A stretch of 38,130 nucleotides of DNA, from the IMG/VR virus record IMGVR_UViG_3300036876_000088, positions 1-38,130 of that record; one strand, given 5' to 3'. This DNA is from a virus. Shown here piece after piece: positions 1,377 through 38,130 of this stretch (its first letter is position 1; every line of letters begins with the position of its first letter). The position numbers were made by a program, and so were the translations under genes. The notes below the pieces were generated by a model. That model worked only from the letters and a program-made list of their open reading frames with translations. It was not told the DNA's origin and ran no database searches.

Positions 1377-2320
1377 ACACCCACCTCTGCCTTCGCCCGC
1401 TTGCGGTGCGGCGCGTGATTCTGGCCGATGATGATATTCACGCCGCGCGTGGGCTTGTCAGGCGTCCCTCCGGTGAGCATTGTGATCCTGGCCTCGACCT
1501 TTGAGCCCCGGTCCATCTGGCCGGCCAGTATCTCCGAAATCTCGGATTGAACATGGCCGAGCATCTCGCCATTTTTCCGGACGATTTTGATAGCCGTTCC
1601 GTTCACACTGTGCGGATTGTCCGGGTCGCGCACCAGGTCGAGCAGCTCGCCAACCTGGCACTGCCGGATGAACTGCTGACGCGAAGTTCCATCGTCATTG
1701 TTGTAGGCGACGCCCATCACCTTCGAGTGCATGACTTTCTTCCACTGAGCTAACCATGCGGCTCGTCCGGTGTCGGTAACAATTTGCATCCCCGCTTGCG
1801 GGGGTGGAGCGGGTGGTGAATTCCATACGATGGCAACGACGATCCGGGGCTTTTCGTCCTTTGTCGCCACGCTTACAACTCGCGCCACGGCGGAAGCGCC
1901 GCGATCCAGCTCATCGGCCAAGCCAAGGGAAGATACCTCGGCATCGACAACTCCACACTCTTCACCGCTGGAACGGACAAACCTGATTGTGTGGGGCCCA
2001 AGCTTGTTGAGTGGATCGCGCGCCAGCCCAAGGAGTTCTCCGACGGTACATGAGGCGGCGGCCTTCATTTGAGAAGTGCGCGTCTCTGGGCTCGGCGCAA
2101 GGAACCTTACGAGCGATGGCGTGCACTTTTCCCATTTCTCAGCCCATTTGTTCAATTCCGCAACAAGCGGGTCTGCAATGGGTGCCGGAGGGACGGACGC
2201 TACTGCATGCGGTGGCTCCGCAACTGTAGGCGATGGAGGCGCTTCAAGATTCAGCGAGGTTGCAGGGCTCGGCGTGACGAGCTTTGCAAACGCAGACCTG
2301 ATCAGGCCCAAATTAAGCAT
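1373..2320 (-). CDS. Tandem HIRAN-domain protein
   Basis: 315 aa from the ATG at 2320, which has a strong Shine-Dalgarno (GGGAGAG) 6 bases upstream. An in-frame ATG at 2359 would add 13 residues but lacks this signal. The C-terminal third carries HIRAN hallmarks: KVMGVAYNNDDGTSRQ, then LVRDPDNPHSVNGTAIKIV, then G-H-V-Q-S-E-I and a DRG-S-x-V-x-A strand. The central part repeats the pattern weakly (LARDPLNKLGPHTIRFV, later LADELDRGASAVARV), suggesting two HIRAN folds. The N-terminus is Pro/Ala-rich. In eukaryotic HLTF this domain binds 3' single-stranded DNA ends; standalone bacterial and phage versions are poorly understood. A second HIRAN gene is at 25009-25458. It lies in the tail module but has no evident structural role. 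Confidence 0.75.
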   Translation of the reverse strand: MLNLGLIRSAFAKLVTPSPATSLNLEAPPSPTVAEPPHAVASVPPAPIADPLVAELNKWAEKWEKCTPSLVRFLAPSPETRTSQMKAAASCTVGELLGLARDPLNKLGPHTIRFVRSSGEECGVVDAEVSSLGLADELDRGASAVARVVSVATKDEKPRIVVAIVWNSPPAPPPQAGMQIVTDTGRAAWLAQWKKVMHSKVMGVAYNNDDGTSRQQFIRQCQVGELLDLVRDPDNPHSVNGTAIKIVRKNGEMLGHVQSEISEILAGQMDRGSKVEARITMLTGGTPDKPTRGVNIIIGQNHAPHRKRAKAEVGV

Positions 2321-2326
2321 TTTGTT

Positions 2327-2353
2327 CTCTCCCAAGAGCGTTTCTCGGGAGAG
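2327..2353 (-). promoter_or_regulatory. Hairpin sequestering the HIRAN gene's Shine-Dalgarno
   Basis: Inverted repeat CTCTCCC/GGGAGAG (7 bp) extended by an inner GAG/CTC after a 2-nt bulge, with a 5-nt loop. In the minus-strand mRNA the 3' arm GGGAGAG is exactly the ribosome-binding site of the gene starting at 2320. Folding would hide it, so translation of the HIRAN/exported-protein pair is probably controlled at this step. Confidence 0.6.
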
Positions 2354-2401
2354 TACCATCTGGGCGGCGAAATGTCCCGCACGAAAGTAACCTGCGACGC
2401 G

Positions 2402-2442
2402 ACGGGTAACGCGCTTTCGCGCTGTCGGCCGCTGGCGCTAGG
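2402..2442. repeat. Type-A palindromic repeat, intergenic copy
   Basis: One copy of an interspersed element with the shared form GGGTAACGC, a small GCG-rich hairpin, then CTGYCGGCCGCTGGCGC. It contains the local palindrome GCGC-TTT-CGCGC and abuts the stop codon of the frameshift-extension frame. Other copies: 3121, 6418 (array), 8031, 8323, 10861, 26236 and 30850. Confidence 0.7.
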
Positions 2443-2736
2443 TCAATGCACCGTTTCCGGCTTGAAGCCCATGCGGGCGAACAACTCGGACTCGGGCACG
2501 CGGCGGTGGATGGGCGCGGACGCGGCGTCGCCATTGTCGTCGGACGGACGATTGATGCGGCGCATGCGGCGATTGCGCATCCGGAACATGAGGGCGAGCA
2601 GCTCCTCCGACCAGCGGCGGTTGATGTATTCGGGAGTCACCCGCCATTCGCAGAGAGCTAGTTCGTAGGCCTCGCCGATGGTGATGGGATCGCCGCCGTC
2701 TTCAGCACCTGGGTCACCATCGTCAGTGCAGAAGCA
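2443..2736 (-). CDS. Tail assembly chaperone, -1 frameshift extension (T-like)
   Basis: Open frame of 97 codons plus stop entered by -1 slippage at 2736-2742. It reads CFCTDDGDPGAEDGGDPITI, then a conserved-looking GEAYELALCEWRVTPEYINR and an Arg-rich segment. Together with the first 118 residues of the upstream frame this gives a 215-aa fusion, equivalent to lambda gpGT. An internal ATG at 2640 could start a 65-aa protein, but the conserved-looking part begins well upstream of it, which favours frameshifting. The role expected from the family is recruiting tail-tube subunits to the tape measure during tail assembly. Confidence 0.75.
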   Translation of the reverse strand, partial: CFCTDDGDPGAEDGGDPITIGEAYELALCEWRVTPEYINRRWSEELLALMFRMRNRRMRRINRPSDDNGDAASAPIHRRVPESELFARMGFKPETVH

Positions 2737-3089
2737 AAAGGGAAGGCCACCAGCATGATCTGCGAGAAGGCCAGCGCCAGCTCCTCTTCGGTAGCATCCG
2801 TCTCGATCACGGCGCGCGGCAGGGTGACGTCGTAGGCGAATACCAGATCGGCGAGCTTCTCCGGAAAGCGCAGGAAGGCGAAGGCAAAGCCGCCGAGAAA
2901 GTTCTCGATGTTGGTGACTTCGCCGCCCAGCTCGCCCACCATGCCGGCGACGGTGGCAATGAACTTCTCACGCCAGCTACGGGCGTTGAGAATCTTGAGG
3001 ATGGGAATCTCGTAGGGCTTGCCGCCAAACTGGACCCGGATGGGCGCGATCGACAGCTTGTCGTCGTCGGTGCGTTCTTTGAGTGCCAT
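2658..3089 (-). CDS. Tail assembly chaperone (G-like)
   Basis: 143 aa from ATG 3089 (MALKERTDDDKLSIAPI). It lies immediately downstream of the major tail protein, the standard position of siphovirus tail assembly chaperones. Its frame overlaps another one, shifted by -1, that stays open to 2443. The slippery heptamer lies at codons 117-118. Most ribosomes should finish this short product and a minority should make the 215-aa fusion. Length and predicted alpha-helical content fit the family. The start was chosen because an upstream extension (to 3671) would run through palindromic repeats. Confidence 0.8.
   Translation of the reverse strand: MALKERTDDDKLSIAPIRVQFGGKPYEIPILKILNARSWREKFIATVAGMVGELGGEVTNIENFLGGFAFAFLRFPEKLADLVFAYDVTLPRAVIETDATEEELALAFSQIMLVAFPFASALTMVTQVLKTAAIPSPSARPTN
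2736..2742 (-). promoter_or_regulatory. Slippery heptamer C_CCT_TTT for -1 frameshifting
   Basis: In the frame of the 143-aa chaperone the codons CCT-TTT are preceded by C, giving a perfect X_XXY_YYZ heptamer (CCCTTTT). Slipping both tRNAs back one base enters the frame that is open to 2443. The zero-frame stop is about 80 bases downstream, so the overlap is the right size for a programmed event. Confidence 0.75.
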
Positions 3090-3120
3090 GGTGCGGGGAT
3101 CTCCTGTAACGCGCAGCTTT

Positions 3121-3156
3121 GGGTAACGCGGTTTCACCGCTGCCAGCCGCGGGCGC
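3121..3156. repeat. Type-A palindromic repeat, intergenic copy
   Basis: GGGTAACGCGGTTTCACCGC followed by TGCCAGCCGCGGGCGC. The internal hairpin is GCGGT/ACCGC. It lies between the tail chaperone start (3089) and the type-B hairpin at 3239-3310. Confidence 0.65.
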
Positions 3157-3238
3157 GTGTGGCTCGCATTCCTCGTCGGGTTCGTAAACTCCGACGTAGA
3201 GCGAGGGAAATGGCATGGGTGGGCCTGAAACCAACTGC

Positions 3239-3310
3239 GGTTGAAAATCTTGGATCGGTGCGTGTCATTCTGAGCGGAGTAGGGGTCCTTCGCTCCGCTC
3301 AGGATGACAC
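3239..3310 (-). repeat. Type-B (HPERSEG-type) palindrome after major tail gene
   Basis: 3262-3310 folds into an 18-bp stem with a single mismatch: GTGTCAT...CTGAGCGGAG pairs with CTCCGCTCA...ATGACAC around a 13-nt loop. It starts 7 bases beyond the major tail stop (3317), so in mRNA it would cap that gene's 3' end. A second, partly degenerate copy (8186-8256) occupies the same relative place downstream of the protease gene. About 28 of 29 bases match in the core GGGGTCCTTCGCT-CGCTCAGGATGACAC. Spurious translation gives peptides such as CHPERSEGP. Confidence 0.8.
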
Positions 3311-3316
3311 TCTTGA

Positions 3317-3913
3317 TTACTCTCCGATTGCGGTGATGTCCACGATCTTGACGAGCTGGGAGCCGAGCGCCTTGGTGGTGTCGGCGAGCAGTTCGATGGA
3401 CAGCGGGACGGTGGTGATGGCCGCGCGCTGGAAGGCCAGCTTGACGGCCGCAGATGCGACGGCTTTGTAGCCAACCAGGTAGCGCGGCAGGCCGGTGGGA
3501 TTGAGTCCCTCGAGGCCGACCATGACTTCGGCGACTGCGCCGCCGCCCAGGTCCATTTCCGTGCTGCCCGGCGTGCCTACGCCCGGCGCGGTGATCGTCT
3601 GGGTATCGGCGGCGATGGCGTTGCCCAGGTTGATCAGGGTCGATTCGGCCAGGACGCACGAGAGGATGCACTTCTCGGAGGCGAGCAGCTTGGCGATCGG
3701 CGAGGCGGACTCATCGATTTTGACGTCGGTCAGCGAAGGCGTGTAGCTGAGGTCGGTGCCCTTTTCGGTGGCGCCGCATTCTTTCCAGGCGGCAACCCAG
3801 GTGAGAACTCCGGTGGTGGCTACGGTCGGAAGGGCCGTCCCGAGCGGGGCGATCAGAATCCTGGCCGATGCGGCCATGACGTTTGCAGAGGTGGTGACGG
3901 GACGGTTTCCCAT
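3317..3913 (-). CDS. Major tail tube protein
   Basis: 198 aa from ATG 3913 with AAAGGA 7 bases upstream. It lies between the tail-completion genes and the tail assembly chaperone, the canonical slot of the siphovirus tail tube subunit. The sequence is beta-rich and small-residue-rich (TTSANVMAASARILIAPLG, later ALGSQLVKIVDITAIGE), with the WKECGATEKGTDLSYTP segment typical of tail-tube folds. A long type-B hairpin sits directly after the stop and may stabilise the transcript of this abundant protein. Assignment rests on position, length and composition. Confidence 0.8.
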   Translation of the reverse strand: MGNRPVTTSANVMAASARILIAPLGTALPTVATTGVLTWVAAWKECGATEKGTDLSYTPSLTDVKIDESASPIAKLLASEKCILSCVLAESTLINLGNAIAADTQTITAPGVGTPGSTEMDLGGGAVAEVMVGLEGLNPTGLPRYLVGYKAVASAAVKLAFQRAAITTVPLSIELLADTTKALGSQLVKIVDITAIGE

Positions 3914-23222: not shown

Positions 23223-23369
23223 TTACGTACTTGACTCCCGTTTCTTTGATTCCGCATCACTTAGCCTCTTTGTGGAAATCTTCCGTTGACGCGGTGGTTT
23301 TTGCTTCGCTTCGGGCCGGTATTTGAGAACAACATCGACGATCTTGTCGAGTATCTTAGGAGGCTTCAT
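23223..23369 (-). CDS. Small basic protein coupled to the transposase
   Basis: 48 aa from ATG 23369, overlapping the transposase stop (ATGA). MKPPKILDKIVDVVLKYRPE followed by Lys/Arg-rich AKQKPPRQRKISTKRLSDAE. Downstream, in the -1 frame, a start-less but protein-like stretch continues (ETGVKYVNPKPKSEATAKLE, to about 23109). This gene might once have been longer or may be frameshifted. Nothing further is supported in 23041-23222. Confidence 0.4.
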   Translation of the reverse strand: MKPPKILDKIVDVVLKYRPEAKQKPPRQRKISTKRLSDAESKKRESST

Positions 23370-24283
23370 TGGATCAACCTCGCATACGTCAGACGCTTAC
23401 CATCCACCGCGTCAATAAACGAATCGAGCCGGTCCAGCGTGTGCCGTTTTACGTCGCCTTCATTCAGCCGGAAGGTGAACTCGTCAACGTATCGGTGAAG
23501 GTGCTTCGGGCTGGCGTGGTGGTAGACGCCGTACATCCCGCGTTTCATCACCGCCCAAACCGACTCAATCGAGTTCGTGTTCACGTCTCCCCGGCTGTAC
23601 TCACCCGCCGAATGCGCCACGGTGTCATGGTCAAAGAACAGACCGCCGATACCCGAATAGCCAGAAGCCTCATCTGTCATCAGTTGGGAGCCAACTTCGA
23701 CGTGCTCCATAATCGCGCCCTGCAAGGCTTCCTTGTCCGTGTTGGCGACCGGGTGAGCGATTACCCTACCGCCGCGCTCACGAAGTCCTACAACGGCTGT
23801 CTTTCCCACGGAACCGCGTCCAGCATTCAGTTTTTTGTGCTCGTGCTTGTTCGCTTCCTTGCCGCCGAAGAAAGCCTCATCTACCTCAACAACACCTTGG
23901 AGTTTGGCGAGTTCACCGCCGCAAGCCTCACGCAAGCGATGGAGCATGAACCATGCCGACTTCTGCTGTACCCCAATCTCTTTGGCGATCTGCATGGAAG
24001 AGATTCCCTTCTGGGCGGTCACGAGCAAGTACATGGCATAGAGCCACTTGTGAAGCGGAATATGGGAACGCTCGAAGATGGTTCCCGTGCGGATCGTGAA
24101 GTCAAGCTGGCACTTGTTACAGCGGTGAAAGCCAGCCTTGCGCGGCGTGATGCGGTCCTGACCGGCACAAGTCGGGCAAGTAACGCCCTTGGGCCAGAGA
24201 CGGCTTTCGAGGTACACTCGCGCCGTTTCCTCATCGGGAAACATCTGGAACAGTTTGAAGGTGCTGATAGTCGATCTACTCAT
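23366..24283 (-). CDS. IS1595-family transposase, operon-embedded
   Basis: 305 aa. N-terminal zinc ribbon (C36-P-T-C39, C55-N-K-C58), HTH region with QKGISSMQIAKEIGVQQKSA, then the DDE-type core: VEVDEAFFGGK (D135), QLMTDEASGY (D204), and NTNSIESVWAVMKRG (N237/E240, K247). This fits the ISXO2-like DDE domain of IS1595. No terminal inverted repeats are visible around it and its stop overlaps the next gene, so it does not look like a discrete insertion sequence. Full length with all catalytic positions. May be a captured enzyme used by the phage, or an old insertion whose ends are lost. Confidence 0.92.
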   Translation of the reverse strand: MSRSTISTFKLFQMFPDEETARVYLESRLWPKGVTCPTCAGQDRITPRKAGFHRCNKCQLDFTIRTGTIFERSHIPLHKWLYAMYLLVTAQKGISSMQIAKEIGVQQKSAWFMLHRLREACGGELAKLQGVVEVDEAFFGGKEANKHEHKKLNAGRGSVGKTAVVGLRERGGRVIAHPVANTDKEALQGAIMEHVEVGSQLMTDEASGYSGIGGLFFDHDTVAHSAGEYSRGDVNTNSIESVWAVMKRGMYGVYHHASPKHLHRYVDEFTFRLNEGDVKRHTLDRLDSFIDAVDGKRLTYARLIQ

Positions 24284-27443: not shown

Positions 27444-30400
27444 CTACTCGAAGTAGACCAACGGCCAGTTTGCCGAACCCGCCGTGATCGTTCCACAGGT
27501 GAAGCTGTTTGCCATAACGCCCGCCGTCGCCGTGGCCGTACAGGTGCCCATCTTGTTGCTCGATGAGTTAATGATGCTAGCCGCTAGAGCGGTGGCAATT
27601 CCGGCGAGCTGCACCGTCGTCACGCTGGTCGTATATGCAAGGTAATAGGTCCCCGGTGCCAGTGTGACGCTGGCAGTTGCCCCGGAAGAGTTAAGCGTCG
27701 AAGTTGTCAGCACGGCTACAGCCGCGCCACTCACAGCGCCAGTATGCAAAACCAATGTCTTAGTAGAATCAAGCAGAGCAATGTCCACAACTGCGGAAGT
27801 TCCCAAGGTGGTCACGTCGATGGTCGCTTTTGACACGACGCCACCGATCGGCAAATAGAATTGAAGCACCTTGACCGCGTTGGCGGAGCTTGAGATTGCT
27901 ACACCAGCATTTGTGCTTGGCGGCAATCCGCCAACGCCGGTTCCGCCCCAGAAGCCGGATGCGCCGCCGCCATATGTGCCCGCAGCTGGGCATCCAGACG
28001 TTTGCGCGTTGCCAGCCCCATCAGTGCAGAGCGGCGTTCCGTTGACCGTGGAACTCGTGAGGTTGGTTGTCATCACGTTGGTCCCGCTGCCACTCGGGTT
28101 GCTCGGAGCGCCCGCAGTGCATGACCCGTCACTCTTCAGGAAGCCACTGCATGACCCGCCGCCAAACAGCGAGACTACCCCGCCATACGCGGTGATCAGT
28201 TGCCCAGTATAGGCCAGCGTGACGGGCGAGCCCGACGTGCCCGCGTCTGGCAACTTGAAGTACCGTTCTGCCGTGAGCAGGCTGTTATCCAGGTGAGCGT
28301 TATAGCCCGTGTTGACGTTGGTGAAGTACCAGCCGAAGCCGCTGGCGTTTGCGAACTTCACGAAGCCATTTGCCCCGGTCGTAGCATGCTGCGCATTTTG
28401 GATCACGAGACCAGAATTTGCCGCTGTTCCTCCCGCATCGAATACCACGCCCACAGTCCAGTTCTCCTGTGCGCCCGGCGATGTTCCGGCCCATCCGGCG
28501 CCACGAAACGTCGCCAGCGTGCTGCCCTTGTTCGATACGCTGGTTGCGGCGGCCAATGGCAAGAACACGATCGGCGAACTGCCCGCGTCAAATTCTAAAT
28601 AGCAGGTGAACCCCGTCTGGGCGGTCGGCAACGAAGTGTTCGTGTATCCACAGTTGACTTGAATCGGGTAGTTGGCGGGAGCGTAGCTCATCATTGCGAA
28701 GTTGGCATGCGAAGGCAACGTCGTGTTCGCCATGTTGAAAAGACCGCCCATGCCCCAGCAGTTAAAGTTGGTGGCGTTGCAATAGAACGTCGCGCCGGGG
28801 TTGATCGCGCTGCCGTCCGAGAGGTTGGCCGAGTTAAACGTGGAGTTGCCCACGCCGACGCTCGTCGGCGCCGGAGCGCCCACCTGCAGCGGGACGGACA
28901 TTGCGCCGCCGCTCCCACTGCCGCTTACCGGGTTCCCCATCGCGTGCTCGAACGCGTTGGCAATGTGGCGCGCGCCGCATATGTCCGGGTGATGCGGAAG
29001 CGCGTAGCTTTTGTCGCAGCCCTGCGCCGGTGCGGCCAAGAAATCCGTGTTCGGGTCCATTGCGGTGTACAGCAGATCCACGTAGATTGCATTGCCGCCG
29101 TCAGCCACGACCTGCTTCTCTACCCCAATCGTCGCCGTATTAAAGGCCGTCCAGCCGGCCCCGTTCGGGATCATCCCTCCCATAAATACGGATGGCGCAG
29201 TGACGCCGCGCGCGCGCAGAACGGGCGGAAAACCCGCGCCGATGATCCCAACCCAAGCGTCCGCCGCCGTGGCGGATGTCACCACGGCGGAGACCGTGTG
29301 CATGCCAGGAGTGAGCCCGGCGAAGCGCGCGCCGGCGACGGAAACTGGCCCCGCGTTGCGTGGGGTGACACCGCCGTTCTGGCTGCTCAGTGTCGAGCTC
29401 CCCGTGATCGTGTCCGTCCTTGCCGTCCCATCCACTTTCACTTGGAAGCTTCCGGCGCTGGCGTTAAAGAGGTAGTACCAGAAGTCCATCACGCCGTCCT
29501 GGCCAACCCATGCAGTCGAATCGGTCAAACTGGAAGCGTTCGTCGTTGTGATCAAGCCGGGCGCGTCCGCAAACGTAGCGTCAGTGGCCCATGTCCCGGC
29601 CTGCGCGAAAGAGCTCGACTGTGCGAGCACCTTGTTGGTGCTGCTCTGCGTCAGCCATGTAGTGACCGCCCACATATTCTGCCAGAAGCTCGTCAGGTAG
29701 TTGGCCGCCAGCACGCCGCCGGGGCACGCCGCAAGCGAGGTGGTTGTGTAGGAGGTCCAGTAGGTCGGGCTGATGTCCGGCTCCTGATTCAAGTTGCTGC
29801 CGCCCAACGACACGTACGATGCGCCGCTGTAGGACGCAGTGACGTATTTCGCGTAAGTCGTGCTCGACGACCAGGCCGTGAGCGGTTGTGCGCCGCAGGC
29901 GAGGTCGCTGTCGTTGGTTCCGATGCTGAGCGTCGTGACCGGGTTCCCGGTATCCGTTGGGTTGGCCAACATGAAAACGCGGAACGACATGTCCGCCGCG
30001 TCATCGCCGCCGATTGCCCGGTTGTTATACGGGTTACCCGCCGAGTTAATGTCGGAATTGATCTGCGCGACGTAACCCAGCGGGTAGGGCGGCGTTGCAG
30101 CCGTGCCAGTGCCGTAGGCGATGGAGTCGCCGAACGCCTGGTAGCCCCCGGGGTTCGTCGAGACGCCGCCGCCCGCATCGAGCAGAGATCCGGACGTGTA
30201 ATCCATGGTCGGCCCAAGCGTCACGCCGCTCAGCGAGCCTCCCAGGTTGATCTGAATGTCGCCGGGGTTGCCGCCTGGAGAAGAGCCGCCGGAGCCAGCC
30301 GGTCCGGTAGGACCGGCTGGGCCAGCCGGCCCCACAGGCCCCGCCACCACTGCTACGCCCGGCACACCGGGCGGAATGAAGCTATCAAAACTCCAGGTCG

Positions 30401-30824
30401 AGCCGGTGGGCTGCACGCAATCGTAGGCGCTCTTGAACGCACCGAAGCTGCCGAGCACGACCGAGCCGTCGGCGTTATTCGTGACTACGACCTTGCCGCA
30501 TTGATAGGTGGGATTGGTCAGCGAGGCGTCGGCAAAGGCGAGCGCGCCGAGGGTCACCGTCTTGTAGGTCGTCATGATGACGCCGGCGGTTACATCGCGG
30601 CAGACTGGCGAGCTGATGGCCTGGCCACCGCCCGGAAGCAGGATGTTGCCCGTCTGCCCAAACGCGTTCTTGAGCGAAATGCAGAACTCGCCGGACGCCA
30701 GAGGAGCGCCGCTCGCGTCCTTGATCTTCGTCGCGGTGATGGTCGAGTACTGCGCGGTGGACGGCACCGCACAGAGCAGCGTGAACGCAACTGCGAAGAG
30801 CAGGATGCGAAGAACCTTCGTCAT
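27444..30824 (-). CDS. Tail fibre with signal peptide and SGNH-hydrolase domain
   Basis: 1126 aa. Residues 1-24 are a textbook Sec signal peptide (VLRILLFAVAFTLLCAVPST then A-Q), very odd for a virion protein. A beta-rich module follows (25-155), then a collagen-like GPVGPAGPAGPTGPAG (162-177). An SGNH/GDSL-type esterase follows: AFGDSIAYG (S234), IGGDD (271-275), SIGTNDS (N304) and HHPDICGARH (611-620), although the Asp usually found three residues before the catalytic His is replaced. A beta-sandwich insert lies between blocks III and V (about 390-560). The C-terminal part is Ser/Thr/Gly-rich receptor-binding type. Likely deacetylates host surface polysaccharide. Confidence 0.82.
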   Translation of the reverse strand: MTKVLRILLFAVAFTLLCAVPSTAQYSTITATKIKDASGAPLASGEFCISLKNAFGQTGNILLPGGGQAISSPVCRDVTAGVIMTTYKTVTLGALAFADASLTNPTYQCGKVVVTNNADGSVVLGSFGAFKSAYDCVQPTGSTWSFDSFIPPGVPGVAVVAGPVGPAGPAGPTGPAGSGGSSPGGNPGDIQINLGGSLSGVTLGPTMDYTSGSLLDAGGGVSTNPGGYQAFGDSIAYGTGTAATPPYPLGYVAQINSDINSAGNPYNNRAIGGDDAADMSFRVFMLANPTDTGNPVTTLSIGTNDSDLACGAQPLTAWSSSTTYAKYVTASYSGASYVSLGGSNLNQEPDISPTYWTSYTTTSLAACPGGVLAANYLTSFWQNMWAVTTWLTQSSTNKVLAQSSSFAQAGTWATDATFADAPGLITTTNASSLTDSTAWVGQDGVMDFWYYLFNASAGSFQVKVDGTARTDTITGSSTLSSQNGGVTPRNAGPVSVAGARFAGLTPGMHTVSAVVTSATAADAWVGIIGAGFPPVLRARGVTAPSVFMGGMIPNGAGWTAFNTATIGVEKQVVADGGNAIYVDLLYTAMDPNTDFLAAPAQGCDKSYALPHHPDICGARHIANAFEHAMGNPVSGSGSGGAMSVPLQVGAPAPTSVGVGNSTFNSANLSDGSAINPGATFYCNATNFNCWGMGGLFNMANTTLPSHANFAMMSYAPANYPIQVNCGYTNTSLPTAQTGFTCYLEFDAGSSPIVFLPLAAATSVSNKGSTLATFRGAGWAGTSPGAQENWTVGVVFDAGGTAANSGLVIQNAQHATTGANGFVKFANASGFGWYFTNVNTGYNAHLDNSLLTAERYFKLPDAGTSGSPVTLAYTGQLITAYGGVVSLFGGGSCSGFLKSDGSCTAGAPSNPSGSGTNVMTTNLTSSTVNGTPLCTDGAGNAQTSGCPAAGTYGGGASGFWGGTGVGGLPPSTNAGVAISSSANAVKVLQFYLPIGGVVSKATIDVTTLGTSAVVDIALLDSTKTLVLHTGAVSGAAVAVLTTSTLNSSGATASVTLAPGTYYLAYTTSVTTVQLAGIATALAASIINSSSNKMGTCTATATAGVMANSFTCGTITAGSANWPLVYFE

Positions 30825-30913: not shown

Positions 30914-31330
30914 TTACAGGACAGATCGCAGGCGCATGCCGCGGTTGCGGGCGAGGGCCCTTTGCTCGACATCGAGAATAGTGTGTTCGGCGGTGACGCC
31001 GAGCGCCGCGAGCTGCTCGATGTGGCGCGTCTCGAACTTGCGTCCGGGCTTACCGACGTGATCGGCGAGCTGCACGCCGCCCTCGTAGATGGGATGCGGC
31101 AGGATGGCCACCTCGGGATGATCGTGCCACTGGTCCTGGTGTATCTCGTGGCGGAAGAGCGCGTTGATCAGCACCGGCTTTCCCGCGGCAATCCAGCGCT
31201 CACGGTCGCCCGGGATGGCGTCGTCGTAGAGCGGCAGCCAGGTGATGCCGGCGGACGTGTAGAAAAGGTCGAGGTGGGCGTGCACCAGCTCCTCGCCCGC
31301 GATGTAGTAACGCCTTCGCAGATGTTCCAC
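30914..31330 (-). CDS. Hypothetical tail-associated protein
   Basis: 138 aa from GTG 31330 (TAGGAG upstream). MEHLRRRYYIAGEELVHAHL, then DDAIPGDRERWIAAGKPVLI, FRHEIHQDQWHDHPEVAILP with several His, and a charged C-terminus. Located between tail tip and fibre genes, so likely a tail accessory or fibre-assembly protein. Not recognised. Confidence 0.65.
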   Translation of the reverse strand: MEHLRRRYYIAGEELVHAHLDLFYTSAGITWLPLYDDAIPGDRERWIAAGKPVLINALFRHEIHQDQWHDHPEVAILPHPIYEGGVQLADHVGKPGRKFETRHIEQLAALGVTAEHTILDVEQRALARNRGMRLRSVL

Positions 31331-31338
31331 CGGTACTC

Positions 31339-34300
31339 CTAACTCGTATAGAGATGGTTGTGCGACTCGACCCAGGCAACGCCATCGGTCGAAACGTAGT
31401 AGAGATGTGGCGCCGCCAGGCGCAGCCGGATGATCTCGCCCTGGTAGCGCCGGCGCTCGATCCTGGTGGGTGACGTCGTGCCGGTCGGAGTGCGCAGCGT
31501 GGCCAGGGGCGAAAGCTGGTAGGCGCGGATCGCGCCCAGCTCCACGTCGTCCAGCGTATGTCCGCTGGTCATGGGAAGGTCCTGCACGCTGCCCTCAAAG
31601 TCGGCATGGATCCAATCCTCGTGCGGCAGCCGCTCGACCTCCAGCACTTCCAACCATGCGGCGCGCGACCAGAGCAGATCGCCCTTGCGAATGTCTTCAT
31701 GGCGCAGGACGCCGCGGGTGCGCTCGCGGGCCAGCACGTCGATGCGATGGCAGCCGCCGTCTCCGCCACCGCTACCGCCCACGGGCGTGGTGACGCCGGG
31801 TGCGTTGGTGGTGAAGTAAATCGGCGAGTCGCTAAGCGGAACGTGCGTAGGTAGGCTCCAGGCCAGCGCCTCAAGCCGCCCGATCGAAGCCGCCGGGAGC
31901 GACCAGCCTAGCGATCCTGGGCCTCCGATGACGCCTGCAATCAATTGCGTTGTCTCGTCGTAATAGAGTTCCAGGCCGTAGCGCGTGGAGGCCGTGAGCC
32001 CGGTGTCGATAACAATTCCCTCGGCGATGACTACCGTGCGGCCGTCGTTAAAGTTCAACGTGAGGTTCAGGGTGAGCGAGACGCTGGTGTCAGAGATGCT
32101 CAAGACAATTGCCGGGTAGAACGCGAGCGCCAGCGGGCCATACAAGCCCACGCCGCCGTTGCTGCCATTCGCCTGCACCGCCCAGGTCACGTCGTCCACC
32201 GTGAGGTTGACCGTCCCTCCCGAGCCCGCCTGCATGCCGATCATGATTTTGGCGAAGCTCGGCACAAAGTCGTAGGTGCCAACGATGGCGGCAGTCCCGC
32301 CGGTGACGTTGGTGGTCGTCGCGTCTTTTTCCGGGACCTGGTACCAGAGGTTCAGCTTCTGGACGGCGCCGCCGCCGAGCCCGGCCGCCACGGCCACGTT
32401 GAAGTAGCAACTATTGCTCAGATCCGCGTTGTACAGGTGGACGCGGAAGTACACCACGCCGCCCACCGTGGGGTGATCGGTGGAGAACTCGACCGAGCAC
32501 GACAGAAGGTCATCCTGCTTGGCTGCCAGGGGCATGCTGAGGATCGCGGCCTCTCCGCCGGCCGGAACTGCCATTCCCTGCCCGAACGGGCTCAAGAGGC
32601 CCGTTACCTGCGAGAAGGAGGCGCCTGCGGACTGCGTACCCAGCGTCCAGTAGTCGGCGATGGATTGACCGGCGCGCGACCAGCTCGAGAAGTTGCCGTT
32701 ATAGAGAACGTCCACTTCGCTGGCGCCGCCGTTGTCCACCGGGATGTTGGTATTCGTGGTGGCGGGCTGGACGTGGAGCCGCCGCGCGACAATCAGAACC
32801 TGAATGGTCCCGCTGTTCGATCCGTAGAAACCCTCGCCATAGTTGAGGTTATTGGTGACCGTACTCACGATGCCCGTCGCCTGGTCAATCTGCGCGCCGA
32901 AGGAATCGAGGCGGATCCGGGCGTTGGGCCCGGTGGTGCTGAAATCGTAGTGGTAACTCAGCTCATCGCGCGAGTAGGCGTAGCCATCCACCGGCGAGGT
33001 GGGAAGCGGGACCGTCCCGGCATTCGTGCAGCTCGCGGTGAAGTACTCCACGCGCAGCGCCGCGAAGCGGATCGCATCGTTCAAAGCCTTGAGCACGTCT
33101 GTCTTGGGAAACGCACCGGAGAGCAGGTTCGAGTCGGCAATGTCGGTGAAGGCGTTCGCCTCCACGGCTGTGGCAAGCGGATGGCGCTGGCACATGGCGA
33201 CGACGGTGAGGCGTCCGTACACCGTCGGGTATTCCTTGTCGTCGAAAAAAATGGTGGAGACGGTGCAGTTGCCCGTTCCGTCGATCGCGCCCTGGATGCG
33301 TTGAAGCTGGTTGAAGACGTTGGCCGGATTGGTGGCTCCCGCGGGGTCGGTGCCGGGGTAATAAATGGGGTCGCCGAAGTCGGTGACCATCGAGCACCAG
33401 CGCCAGCACCAGGCGAAGGTAACTTCCGCGTAGGAGTATTTGTAGCCGTCCACCGGAGACACGGGCAACGGAACCTGCTCGCCGTTGGTGAACTCGCCCA
33501 TGAAGATGGCTTCGTGTTCGAGCGAGGCCAGCTTGGCGTTGTGATTCAAGGTCTGCGCCAGCAGCTGGGTGATCGCCTTATCCTGGGCGAAGTCAGCATC
33601 CGGCAGGTCGTTCCATGCCGGCAGCGTCGCCGAAACGATGAGGCTCGACATGCGCCGCACGCCGATGGTGAATACCTCGATAATGCCGTCGTTGGTCATG
33701 CTCGCGGAGGTCGTCGAGCCGGACTGGCGGTATTTCACGTAGCTGCTGACCTGGCCGGTGGCCTGCTCGACGAACGCTTCGAAGTACCAGATGCTGCCCG
33801 GCCCGCTGGCCTTGTTGGAAGTAAGCACGGTAGTGGTCACGCCGCTCACCGGATCGGTGGAACTGGTGCTGGTGACGCCGCCGGTCCAGGCGTAATGCCA
33901 CAGATAGATCAGCTCATCCTGCTCGTAGGTGTAGCCGTCCACGGGCGATTGCGGCAGCGTGACGGTGTCGCCGTGCTTGTACTGGCCGACGAATACCTCG
34001 GGGCGAACGATGCCGAATTTGGCGTTGCCCATGATGCGCTGGAAATACAGCCCCATCGCGTACTCGTTGGCTGCGAGCAGCGAATCCGGCAGGTCCACGA
34101 AGCCGGGCGGCGTTGCCAGCGTGAGCAACTGCGCAACCGTGACCGTGCAGAGTCCCGACGTGCTCGGCAGGTAACTGCCGTCGCCGCCGTACTCGGCCGA
34201 GAGTGCATGCGTGAGTGGGATGTTGTCGGTGCCCACGCCCAGTCCGGTCGTGGTCATGTGGGCCGTGGTCACGCCCAACGTGGTGCTCAGCACGCCGGTG

Positions 34301-34437
34301 CCGATCGGGTTCACACCGTCGTAAAACGTCACCGTCCCGGTGGCGGCCGAGGGAGTCACCGTGGCCGTGAGGGTCACGGCGGTTCCATAGCCCGCGCCGG
34401 GTGTCGAACTGGTGAGTACGGTAGTGGTGGCCGTCAT
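31339..34437 (-). CDS. Tail-tip protein with Ig-like domain, repeats and Hint domain
   Basis: 1032 aa. Residues 5-103 are a bacterial Ig-like (Big_5-type) domain: GYGTAVTLTATVTPS, GTVTFYDGVNPIGTG, LSAEYGGDGSYLPSTSG. Three internal repeats of about 155 residues follow, each with P-x-x-S-P-V-D-G-Y-x-Y (SPVDGY at 164, 327, 481). Then comes a beta-rich region and a Gly linker. From C896 to the end is a Hint/intein-like domain: GGCHRIDVLARE, RKGDLLW, LPMTSGHTLDD (T-x-x-H type, H960) and the terminal WVESHN (H1026-N1027) with five residues after. This would allow self-cleavage at Asn. The place in the operon matches central fibre proteins. Confidence 0.75.
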   Translation of the reverse strand: MTATTTVLTSSTPGAGYGTAVTLTATVTPSAATGTVTFYDGVNPIGTGVLSTTLGVTTAHMTTTGLGVGTDNIPLTHALSAEYGGDGSYLPSTSGLCTVTVAQLLTLATPPGFVDLPDSLLAANEYAMGLYFQRIMGNAKFGIVRPEVFVGQYKHGDTVTLPQSPVDGYTYEQDELIYLWHYAWTGGVTSTSSTDPVSGVTTTVLTSNKASGPGSIWYFEAFVEQATGQVSSYVKYRQSGSTTSASMTNDGIIEVFTIGVRRMSSLIVSATLPAWNDLPDADFAQDKAITQLLAQTLNHNAKLASLEHEAIFMGEFTNGEQVPLPVSPVDGYKYSYAEVTFAWCWRWCSMVTDFGDPIYYPGTDPAGATNPANVFNQLQRIQGAIDGTGNCTVSTIFFDDKEYPTVYGRLTVVAMCQRHPLATAVEANAFTDIADSNLLSGAFPKTDVLKALNDAIRFAALRVEYFTASCTNAGTVPLPTSPVDGYAYSRDELSYHYDFSTTGPNARIRLDSFGAQIDQATGIVSTVTNNLNYGEGFYGSNSGTIQVLIVARRLHVQPATTNTNIPVDNGGASEVDVLYNGNFSSWSRAGQSIADYWTLGTQSAGASFSQVTGLLSPFGQGMAVPAGGEAAILSMPLAAKQDDLLSCSVEFSTDHPTVGGVVYFRVHLYNADLSNSCYFNVAVAAGLGGGAVQKLNLWYQVPEKDATTTNVTGGTAAIVGTYDFVPSFAKIMIGMQAGSGGTVNLTVDDVTWAVQANGSNGGVGLYGPLALAFYPAIVLSISDTSVSLTLNLTLNFNDGRTVVIAEGIVIDTGLTASTRYGLELYYDETTQLIAGVIGGPGSLGWSLPAASIGRLEALAWSLPTHVPLSDSPIYFTTNAPGVTTPVGGSGGGDGGCHRIDVLARERTRGVLRHEDIRKGDLLWSRAAWLEVLEVERLPHEDWIHADFEGSVQDLPMTSGHTLDDVELGAIRAYQLSPLATLRTPTGTTSPTRIERRRYQGEIIRLRLAAPHLYYVSTDGVAWVESHNHLYTS

Positions 34438-36184: not shown

Positions 36185-38130
36185 TTAGGAACGCCTCACG
36201 GTGCGCCGCGCTTCGGAGGCGAGCAATCGCTTGCCTCCGTTGACGCGGGTGTTGACCTGGTCGATTACGGTGTCGAGCACGTCGGGACTCACGATGCCCT
36301 TGAGATTGGGGAAGTGGAAATGCGAGTCTCCGCCGCCCCCGCCGCCGCTGGCTTGCATGCGCTCGGTGATGGCGTCGGCGATGGCCGACATGGCGCGCGG
36401 ATCGTCGAGCGGCAGCGCGGCTTCGCGCGAGCCTTCGGAGGCGCTGTTGATGCTGTCTCCAATCACGGCCAGGGTCGGTGAGCTGACAAGGCCGCCAGTG
36501 GCGAAGCGCTGGACGTTGACCGTCTGTGAAGGATTGTTGCCGGCCGTTCCCGCCGAGCCGCTGATGCCGTTGCCGCTGGCAGGCGTGGCCGTGCTGGAAG
36601 AAGAGGAGCTACCGCCAGAAGAACCACCGCTGCCGCCGCTCATGGCCATCGCGCCGAGTCCGGCAGCGACGGCGCCAGCGGCAAACTCGGCGGCTGCGAC
36701 GAAGTGTCCAGCGGCGTACTGCTCAAGGGCTGGATTTGCGAGGTCTCCGAGTCCCATGGCAGTCTCGTAAATTGCCTGGACGATGCACATCGAGGAGATG
36801 GATGAGAGGACGGAAGCCGCCATCTTTTCCATCGCTTTGCCTATGCCCTCGCTGCCGGTCTCCGCCGCCGCGACCGCCTGGCCGATGCCCTGGGCAAACT
36901 CCTCTCCGATCACCGACGCGGCGGTTTTGAATGTAGTCGTGCCGTCGGCAACGGTCCTCGCAAGATCGTGGAACTCCGCCCTCAGTTTTTCCGTCTTAAC
37001 TTTTGGGGTAGCTCCAGCCAGTTTCTCGATGCTCTTGGTGAGGAGGTCTAGGTCCTTCTGTAGCGCGACAGTGGCTACCCCGGCCTGCTTCTTGGCATTG
37101 ATATCGGCCTGGAGAGCCTTCTGATACGCGACCATCCAGTCGAGCTGGCTGGCCATGCCTGTGCCGGCTGCCCGCGCCACAATCTCGTAGTCTTCCCTGG
37201 CGTGCCGCGCCATCTCGTCATACATGGTGATGCCGGTCATGCCGAGGGCTTTGTATGCGGCTTCCAAAGCGGTGACAACCGCGAGCTGCTTTTTTTCCTC
37301 CTCGGTCAGCTCGACGGTTGCGGGGACGGTCGCGGCGATGGTTTCGACGATGCGTTCCTTGATCGACTTCTGTAATGCCTCGAAATTCGCGCGCGCCTCC
37401 GCGAGTTTGGCCAGGTGCTCCGTTTCGAGCGACTCGATCCCGGCGTTTTGCGCGATGATTCGCGCGGCGTTTTTCGTGGGGTCTTTTTCCAGAAGCGCGA
37501 GCAGTTCCTGCTGATAGCTCAGCTCGGCGTTGTACTTCGCCTGGGCCGAGTCTCGCGTCATCTGCAGCTCTAGCGTGGCCGATATCTGCCCCTGCGCGAG
37601 CAGCAGCTTGCCGGTGGCCGCCCAAAGGTCGGCGTTGGCGTCTGCGCTCCTCTTATTCGCGGCCAGCTTCGCTTCCGCGATGGCTGTGGCGATGGCAACC
37701 ATTTCTTTGCCGTGCTGTGCGGCCTTGGCTGCTTCCTCATGGTCGTACTCTTTGGACAGATTTGCCTGCTCCTGCTGCTGAGTCTTGATGGTGGAGGTGA
37801 GGAGCAGAAGTTGCCCACTCAGCCGGTTCATCTCCGCCTGCGACGCTTCGCTCAGGCCCAAGCCCTCTTTCATAAAATCGCGGAACCTGGTCAGCCTGTT
37901 TTCGAGGTCGTTGACCGAGAGCTCGTTTTTCCTGATCGAGTCATTCAGGTCCATGAACTCTTTTTTGATCTTCGCGGTGCCGCTGAGGCCAATAAACCCG
38001 TACGCCTTTTGGAGATCTTCGAGCTTTTTGACCTGGTCGGCGAGCGATCCGTTGATCTTGATCTGCTCCTCGTACTCAGCCTTCATTGCCTCCGTGTAAA
38101 CGAATTTGTCCCCGATGAACGCAGAGAGTT
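36185..38130 (-). CDS. Tape measure protein, C-terminal part (cut by window edge)
   Basis: 647 codons plus stop, frame open to the right edge; it starts LSAFIGDKFVYTEAMKAEYE, which is not an N-terminus. Long alpha-helical, coiled-coil-rich region (ELSVNDLENRLTRFRDFMKE; LAANKRSADANADLWAATGK), then a short membrane-like stretch (AEFAAGAVAAGLGAMAMSGG), a Ser/Gly linker and a conserved-looking C-terminal domain with SAIADAITERMQASGGGGGG. The N-terminal 198 residues are at 1-595. Total length would be at least 845 aa, consistent with a tail of roughly 130 nm at the usual 0.15 nm per residue. Confidence 0.87.
   Translation of the reverse strand, partial: LSAFIGDKFVYTEAMKAEYEEQIKINGSLADQVKKLEDLQKAYGFIGLSGTAKIKKEFMDLNDSIRKNELSVNDLENRLTRFRDFMKEGLGLSEASQAEMNRLSGQLLLLTSTIKTQQQEQANLSKEYDHEEAAKAAQHGKEMVAIATAIAEAKLAANKRSADANADLWAATGKLLLAQGQISATLELQMTRDSAQAKYNAELSYQQELLALLEKDPTKNAARIIAQNAGIESLETEHLAKLAEARANFEALQKSIKERIVETIAATVPATVELTEEEKKQLAVVTALEAAYKALGMTGITMYDEMARHAREDYEIVARAAGTGMASQLDWMVAYQKALQADINAKKQAGVATVALQKDLDLLTKSIEKLAGATPKVKTEKLRAEFHDLARTVADGTTTFKTAASVIGEEFAQGIGQAVAAAETGSEGIGKAMEKMAASVLSSISSMCIVQAIYETAMGLGDLANPALEQYAAGHFVAAAEFAAGAVAAGLGAMAMSGGSGGSSGGSSSSSSTATPASGNGISGSAGTAGNNPSQTVNVQRFATGGLVSSPTLAVIGDSINSASEGSREAALPLDDPRAMSAIADAITERMQASGGGGGGDSHFHFPNLKGIVSPDVLDTVIDQVNTRVNGGKRLLASEARRTVRRS

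Follow-up and report, generated by a model that had tools for sequence, protein, structure and literature searches.

A predicted C-terminal intein-type (Hint) domain in a phage tail-tip protein, and its co-inherited partner gene

Hint domains are known from inteins, Hedgehog and secreted bacterial proteins. Among them, A-type BILs end in HN without a nucleophile at the following (+1) position, form an N-terminal thioester, cyclise the terminal Asn and mostly cleave (PMC4031507, PMC7664689), and their flanks can also be joined when a free amine attacks the thioester (review, PMC4031507). In phages, tailspikes carry C-terminal chaperones that remove themselves (PMC6872550), and fibres are paired with tip proteins, as in S16 gp37-gp38 and Mu Tfa (PMC6630733, PMC7289586). 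No report of a Hint domain fixed at the end of a phage tail tip together with its own partner gene was found in the open-access literature.

The window, i.e. the whole 38,130-nucleotide stretch analysed here, comes from an IMG/VR virus record and belongs to a siphophage of soil bacteria with HK97-type head genes (portal, protease, major head protein and terminase). After the tape measure gene, genes for proteins of 129 aa and 505 aa precede that of a 1032-aa protein (31339-34437), composed of an Ig-like Big_3_5 domain (residues 8-102), a fibre body built of a triple P-x-SP-x-DGY-x-Y repeat, a Gly linker and a C-terminal Hint domain. The first-pass annotation had placed this protein at the tail tip, which is supported in the window phage by the gene order, with the tape measure nearby, and in relatives by the same domain terminating central-tail-fibre-J and GTA-hub proteins. 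The features of the locus are as follows:

36185-38086: tape measure protein
31339-34437, minus strand: tail-tip/central fibre protein of 1032 aa, read as an ORF
31753-31779, minus strand: Gly-rich linker GGSGGGDGG, residues 887-895, before Cys896, read from the sequence
31357-31752, minus strand: Hint domain of subtype B, residues 896-1027, from profile, fold and conservation
31750-31752, minus strand: Cys896, putative N-terminal nucleophile (intein C1), present in 14/14 members of both subtypes and superposed on residue 1 of solved inteins
31558-31569, minus strand: TSGH, residues 957-960, block B T-x-x-H (T957, H960), with T-x-G-H in 5/5 of subtype B
31405-31407, minus strand: His1011 (in PHLYY), block F-like His, 5/5 in subtype B
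31357-31362, minus strand: H1026-N1027, block G HN, 14/14 members
31342-31356, minus strand: C-terminal tail HLYTS, five residues with His at +1, read from the sequence
31336-31340, minus strand: Shine-Dalgarno AGGAG overlapping the stop codon of the tail protein, read from the sequence
30914-31330, minus strand: subtype-B partner protein with GTG start, about 138 aa, always directly downstream of the subtype-B Hint
27444-30824, minus strand: 1126-aa fibre-like protein, the gene after the partner, with a collagen-like GPAGP stretch and a weak GDSL-lipase match

All the residues on which the first-pass annotation had based its proposal of a Hint domain were found in place, namely a Cys896 following the Gly linker, the TSGH block and an HN followed by exactly five residues, and the C-terminal stretch from Cys896 does comprise 137 residues. 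Cys896 is the sole Cys beyond residue 677 of the tail protein, and a Gly-rich linker before Cys1 is found in the relatives as well. The pattern exceeds chance, because its start and end are shared by relatives of no more than 29-38% identity and by a second subtype. Two features overlooked in the earlier reading were the co-inherited partner gene and the missing +1 nucleophile.

The Hint link became visible only once relatives had been gathered, since direct scans with the window domain were empty: there was no match to the domain alone in Pfam, NCBIfam, PHROGs or by phmmer against the PDB, and single-sequence scans recovered no relatives. The route to the relatives was the neighbouring 505-aa protein, which led to L002, a locus with a homologous tail protein ending GGGDGTC...LIHN-TFVLPC, after which profile scans with the fibre body found relatives both with and without the Hint end. 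A Hint profile search, as the first-pass annotation had suggested, thus came out empty for the window sequence and positive for the profile that includes relatives: the subtype-B profile ranked Hint structures first in the PDB (8w20, E 0.0018; the BIL 2lwy, 0.011; the gp41-1 intein, 0.025). The L042 domain matched Pfam Vint at 0.0023, under the curated cut-off, a three-row profile singled out a ribonucleotide-reductase intein among 392 genomes, and the L047 domain matched the NrdA inteins of Acinetobacter phage KARL-1 (E 3e-6) and Shewanella phage Thanatos (1e-5) in alignments that stop at the HN. As a side observation, the annotation of the KARL-1 nrdA intein (L062) consists of split genes, and a separate hypothetical ORF lies between the two parts of NrdA; an insert, unnamed in the record, is likely to interrupt the intein there.

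An AlphaFold (AF2) model of the window domain was of moderate confidence (pLDDT 68.9, pTM 0.69), with the lowest pLDDT over model residues 71-93, a stretch that takes in part of the TSGH block. Its best structural match was the gp41-1 intein, with Z 14.7 and 1.8 A over 115 residues; in the superposition Cys896, model residue 9, lies on residue 1 of the intein and Asn1027, model residue 140, on its terminal Asn. The best 50 rows from Foldseek and VIA were all Hint, intein, BIL or Hedgehog structures, and many matches in a viral structure library were proteins from phages and large viruses whose names likewise denote a Hint or an intein. Fold, profile and intein homology therefore lend strong support to the Hint/intein-like domain of the first-pass annotation, and the C-terminus of the tail tip is, on profile and modelled fold, a genuine intein-type domain.

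The domains fall into two subtypes, A with nine members (L002, L011, L020, L027/L034, L029, L035, L036, L037 and L041) and B with five (the window, L042, L043, L047 and L050). Each subtype was aligned on its own, because a naive MAFFT alignment that placed the window together with subtype A got the second half wrong; hhalign then joined the two alignments and showed the subtypes to be related (E 1.2e-10, probability 97%, in a single comparison). Leave-one-out HMMs recovered every member, the window at E 3.4e-21. Throughout both subtypes only 5-8 residues follow the HN (14/14) and there is no endonuclease insert. Subtype B retains the full catalytic set in 5/5 members (Cys1, T-x-G-H, block-F His and terminal HN), and its +1 residue is H, F, M, I or L, with a nucleophile (Cys/Ser/Thr) in 0/5. 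Subtype A begins with Cys-Pro, ends in HN plus 6-8 residues and keeps Cys1 and HN in 9/9; its block-B Thr is absent in 9/9, its block-B His is lost in 4/9 (Tyr or Arg), and its +1 residue is Pro in two members and Thr in L002, L029 and L035. Catalysis is therefore not conserved over the entire module, given these block-B losses and the two HN-Pro ends. Selection on the domain is purifying (dN/dS about 0.06 for the L042/L050 Hint), and conservation is higher in the Hint than in the preceding 300 aa, at 84% vs 77% between L042 and L050 and 73% vs 51% in a subtype-A pair. Separately, an acidobacterial protein (L048, 1210-3141, minus strand) carries a divergent C-terminal Hint (SCFWGQ...LAHN-LKELG; Pfam Hint 0.0092) and neither of the known partners follows it in the adjoining stretch, which points to further subtypes. 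The candidates L022-L026, L033, L038-L040 and L044-L046 were rejected because, as far as examined, they match unrelated frames or enzymes by chance; L040 happens to encode a protein similar to an ISXO2/IS1595-like transposase (305 aa, by eye) whose gene lies inside the window phage genome at 23366-24283 on the minus strand.

At least three unrelated tail scaffolds carry the Hint at their C-terminus, namely the triple-repeat fibre (window, L002, L011, L020 and L029), proteins matching central tail fibre J (L027 and L047) and proteins with the GTA hub C-terminal domain Rcc01698 (L042 and L050, the latter also matching Phage-tail_3). The window and the L020 prophage of an Acidobacteria MAG share 69% identity in the fibre body, yet have different Hint subtypes, and nine fibre homologues are without a Hint (L004-L008, L017-L019 and L021). 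The spread over several scaffold families, together with the Hint-free homologues, marks the Hint as a C-terminal cassette which is gained, lost and exchanged between unrelated phage tail proteins. All genome matches for the module were in Acidobacteriota, in phages and prophages. The domain had been called rare for a phage tail tip; this agrees with its absence from 50,697 GenBank phages at tblastn sensitivity, where only the NrdA inteins were found, but not with its recurrence in acidobacterial phages and prophages.

Directly downstream of each Hint is a small partner gene, encoding about 110 aa behind subtype A and about 120-145 aa behind subtype B. Pairing followed subtype without crossing in 9/9 (A) and 5/5 (B), although sampling was mainly of one bacterial order and these are related members, not independent events; the nine Hint-free homologues have neither partner. 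With the L020 partner as query, 298 genomes gave only sites beside subtype-A Hints and one weak, stop-containing match, whereas partner B as query in the same order gave only two genomes, in both of which subtype B had been found before. When viruses were scanned with partner B, a new contig, L050, emerged, in which a subtype-B Hint lies just upstream. The overlap of AGGAG with the stop codon, as read from the sequence, would couple translation of the window partner to the tail gene. No relation between partners A and B was found by hhalign, nor was there a Pfam or PHROG match; the partner-B model was confident, at a pLDDT of 88.6, and its fold gave no clear match (best PDB Foldseek E 0.49, Z at most 4.1), so that a cap or chaperone role would rest on position and co-inheritance. 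In L036 the subtype-A partner (1887-3377) is enlarged by an insert of a few hundred residues and by a long extension at its C-terminus. Both additions abound in Gly, Ser, Thr and Val and resemble fibres in composition, which suggests that adhesin-like domains can be carried by the partner itself.

The fibre-like protein encoded after the window partner (27444-30824) has an apparent Sec signal peptide at its N-terminus (MTKVLRILLFAVAFTLLCAVPSTAQ), and like-placed proteins with a similar hydrophobic start follow the partner in L020, L042, L047 and L050; the gene is an uncertain member of the Hint module. Signal peptides are odd on phage structural proteins, and those of this type may be borrowed N-termini of secreted host proteins.

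These comparisons establish that the domain is a Hint by homology and fold, which of its residues are conserved, how the module is built and that the partner is inherited with it; cleavage, its timing and the role of the partner are what we infer from them. The window subtype has the A-type BIL signature, with a C-terminal H1026-N1027, no Cys, Ser or Thr at +1 and a distribution scattered over non-homologous proteins, and is predicted to be cleavage-competent and no canonical splicer. Autocleavage at Cys896 and Asn1027, which the first-pass annotation had raised, is plausible given the catalytic residues in all subtype-B members, and since C-terminal cleavage would free almost nothing, with five residues after the HN, the Gly895-Cys896 bond is the meaningful one. 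Once the domain had folded, Cys896 would attack the Gly895 carbonyl in an N-S acyl shift aided by Thr957 and His960, and hydrolysis of the thioester would leave the fibre terminating at the Gly linker. Asn1027 could cyclise and the five-residue tail be shed, and the partner, whose gene comes next and is translationally coupled, would bind the Hint or the freshly processed tip as a chaperone or cap, so that the module may serve to trim the tail tip, or to cap it, while the tip is being assembled. The A-type BIL signature, the purifying selection and the better conservation of the Hint than of the fibre favour self-cleavage in tip assembly, and a domesticated mini-intein of this kind, self-cleaving at Cys896 with the partner as chaperone or cap, is tentatively preferred at somewhat under an even chance. 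If active, it would provide tail fibres with a second self-trimming chemistry independent of the S74 chaperones, and the function of BIL domains, long an open question, could be tested in virions. The module is also a marker for the tail-tip complexes of little-studied Acidobacteriota phages.

Proline after the HN should hinder Asn cyclisation. Its occurrence in two subtype-A members, together with the persistence of module and partner despite the decayed block B, is what would be expected of a structural pseudo-enzyme, in which the Hint fold is a docking platform for the partner at the tail tip and nothing is cleaved in the virion; the large insert and extension of the L036 partner would likewise suit a surface-exposed structural part. 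Docking alone is possible on these grounds at least in subtype A, but the Cys1 and terminal HN kept in 14/14 members are unneeded for a docking fold, and subtype B, including the window, has lost none of its catalytic set, which makes this reading a somewhat unlikely one for the module. A protein ligase, in which an amine resolves the thioester at Cys896 so that Gly895 becomes covalently joined to the partner, a virion protein or the host surface, would draw on the amine-driven joining by A-type BILs and would account for a dedicated partner always being encoded by the adjacent gene. Studied BILs, however, mainly cleave, no residue or peptide stood out as a conserved acceptor, partner N-termini start with Met, and nothing points to the host surface, so that the covalent attachment to it once proposed finds no support. 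Ligation is accordingly regarded as improbable, and its specific form as an intein-derived phage ligase, passing the Gly895 thioester to the dedicated partner (or to a fibre attached to it), as slightly more so; if it were true, virions would have a covalently swappable tip.

The retained C1 and HN and the homology to phage NrdA inteins could also denote an ordinary splicing intein, a selfish element near the 3' end of a tail gene. Its position at the extreme C-terminus in every case, the want of a conserved +1 Cys, Ser or Thr and of an endonuclease insert, the differing host proteins and the coupled partner gene all stand against this. In the window, a canonical class 1 intein was rejected on the His at +1 and on there being no C-extein beyond five residues; normal splicing is impossible without a +1 nucleophile, and intein splicing, rejected on anatomy, is left with a very small probability. 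Hint domains precede C-terminal toxins in polymorphic-toxin proteins, and by that precedent the module could be a remnant of such an architecture, in which a pretoxin Hint releases the toxin and the small gene after the Hint gene is the immunity gene. Here the scaffolds are tail proteins, the 5-8 residues past the HN are all that remains in each of the 14 members, and no toxin domain follows the Hint; toxin release, equally rejected on anatomy, is scarcely credible.

The proposed self-cleaving mini-intein can be set beside the described systems. The mini-inteins of phage NrdA (KARL-1, Thanatos and Vibrio phage SUMAE) and gp41-1 share its fold and, for L047, about 30% identity over most of the Hint up to the HN, but lie inside enzymes and have Cys or Ser at +1, whereas the subtype-B tail Hints have neither. 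The Hedgehog autoprocessing domain is likewise a C-terminal Hint after a Gly-Cys junction in which only the N-terminal acyl shift would be useful; the tail Hint differs in having no sterol-recognition region and in keeping the terminal HN. Peptidase S74 chaperones would act alike, as self-removing C-terminal domains on tail fibres, but are unrelated in sequence, with no Pfam match to an S74 domain in the C-terminal region of the tail protein. The S74 chaperones use Ser/Lys-type chemistry, whereas that proposed for the tail Hint is a Cys thioester. In S16/T2 gp37-gp38 and Mu tail fibre-Tfa, a tip protein and a small downstream gene are similarly co-inherited with the fibre C-terminus, and no sequence or fold link of the partner to gp38 or Tfa was found by Pfam, PHROG or PDB fold search; this parallel and that to the S74 chaperones would be analogies, not memberships. 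The A-type BILs (2lwy of Clostridium thermocellum and the Tetrahymena BUBL BIL2, 6y75) are alike in Hint fold, Cys1, TxxH, HN and absence of a +1 nucleophile, and are also mobile between non-homologous host proteins, but the tail Hint, with its putative autocleavage, is distinguished from them by being always C-terminal on phage fibres or hubs, with 5-8 residues behind it and a subtype-matched partner.
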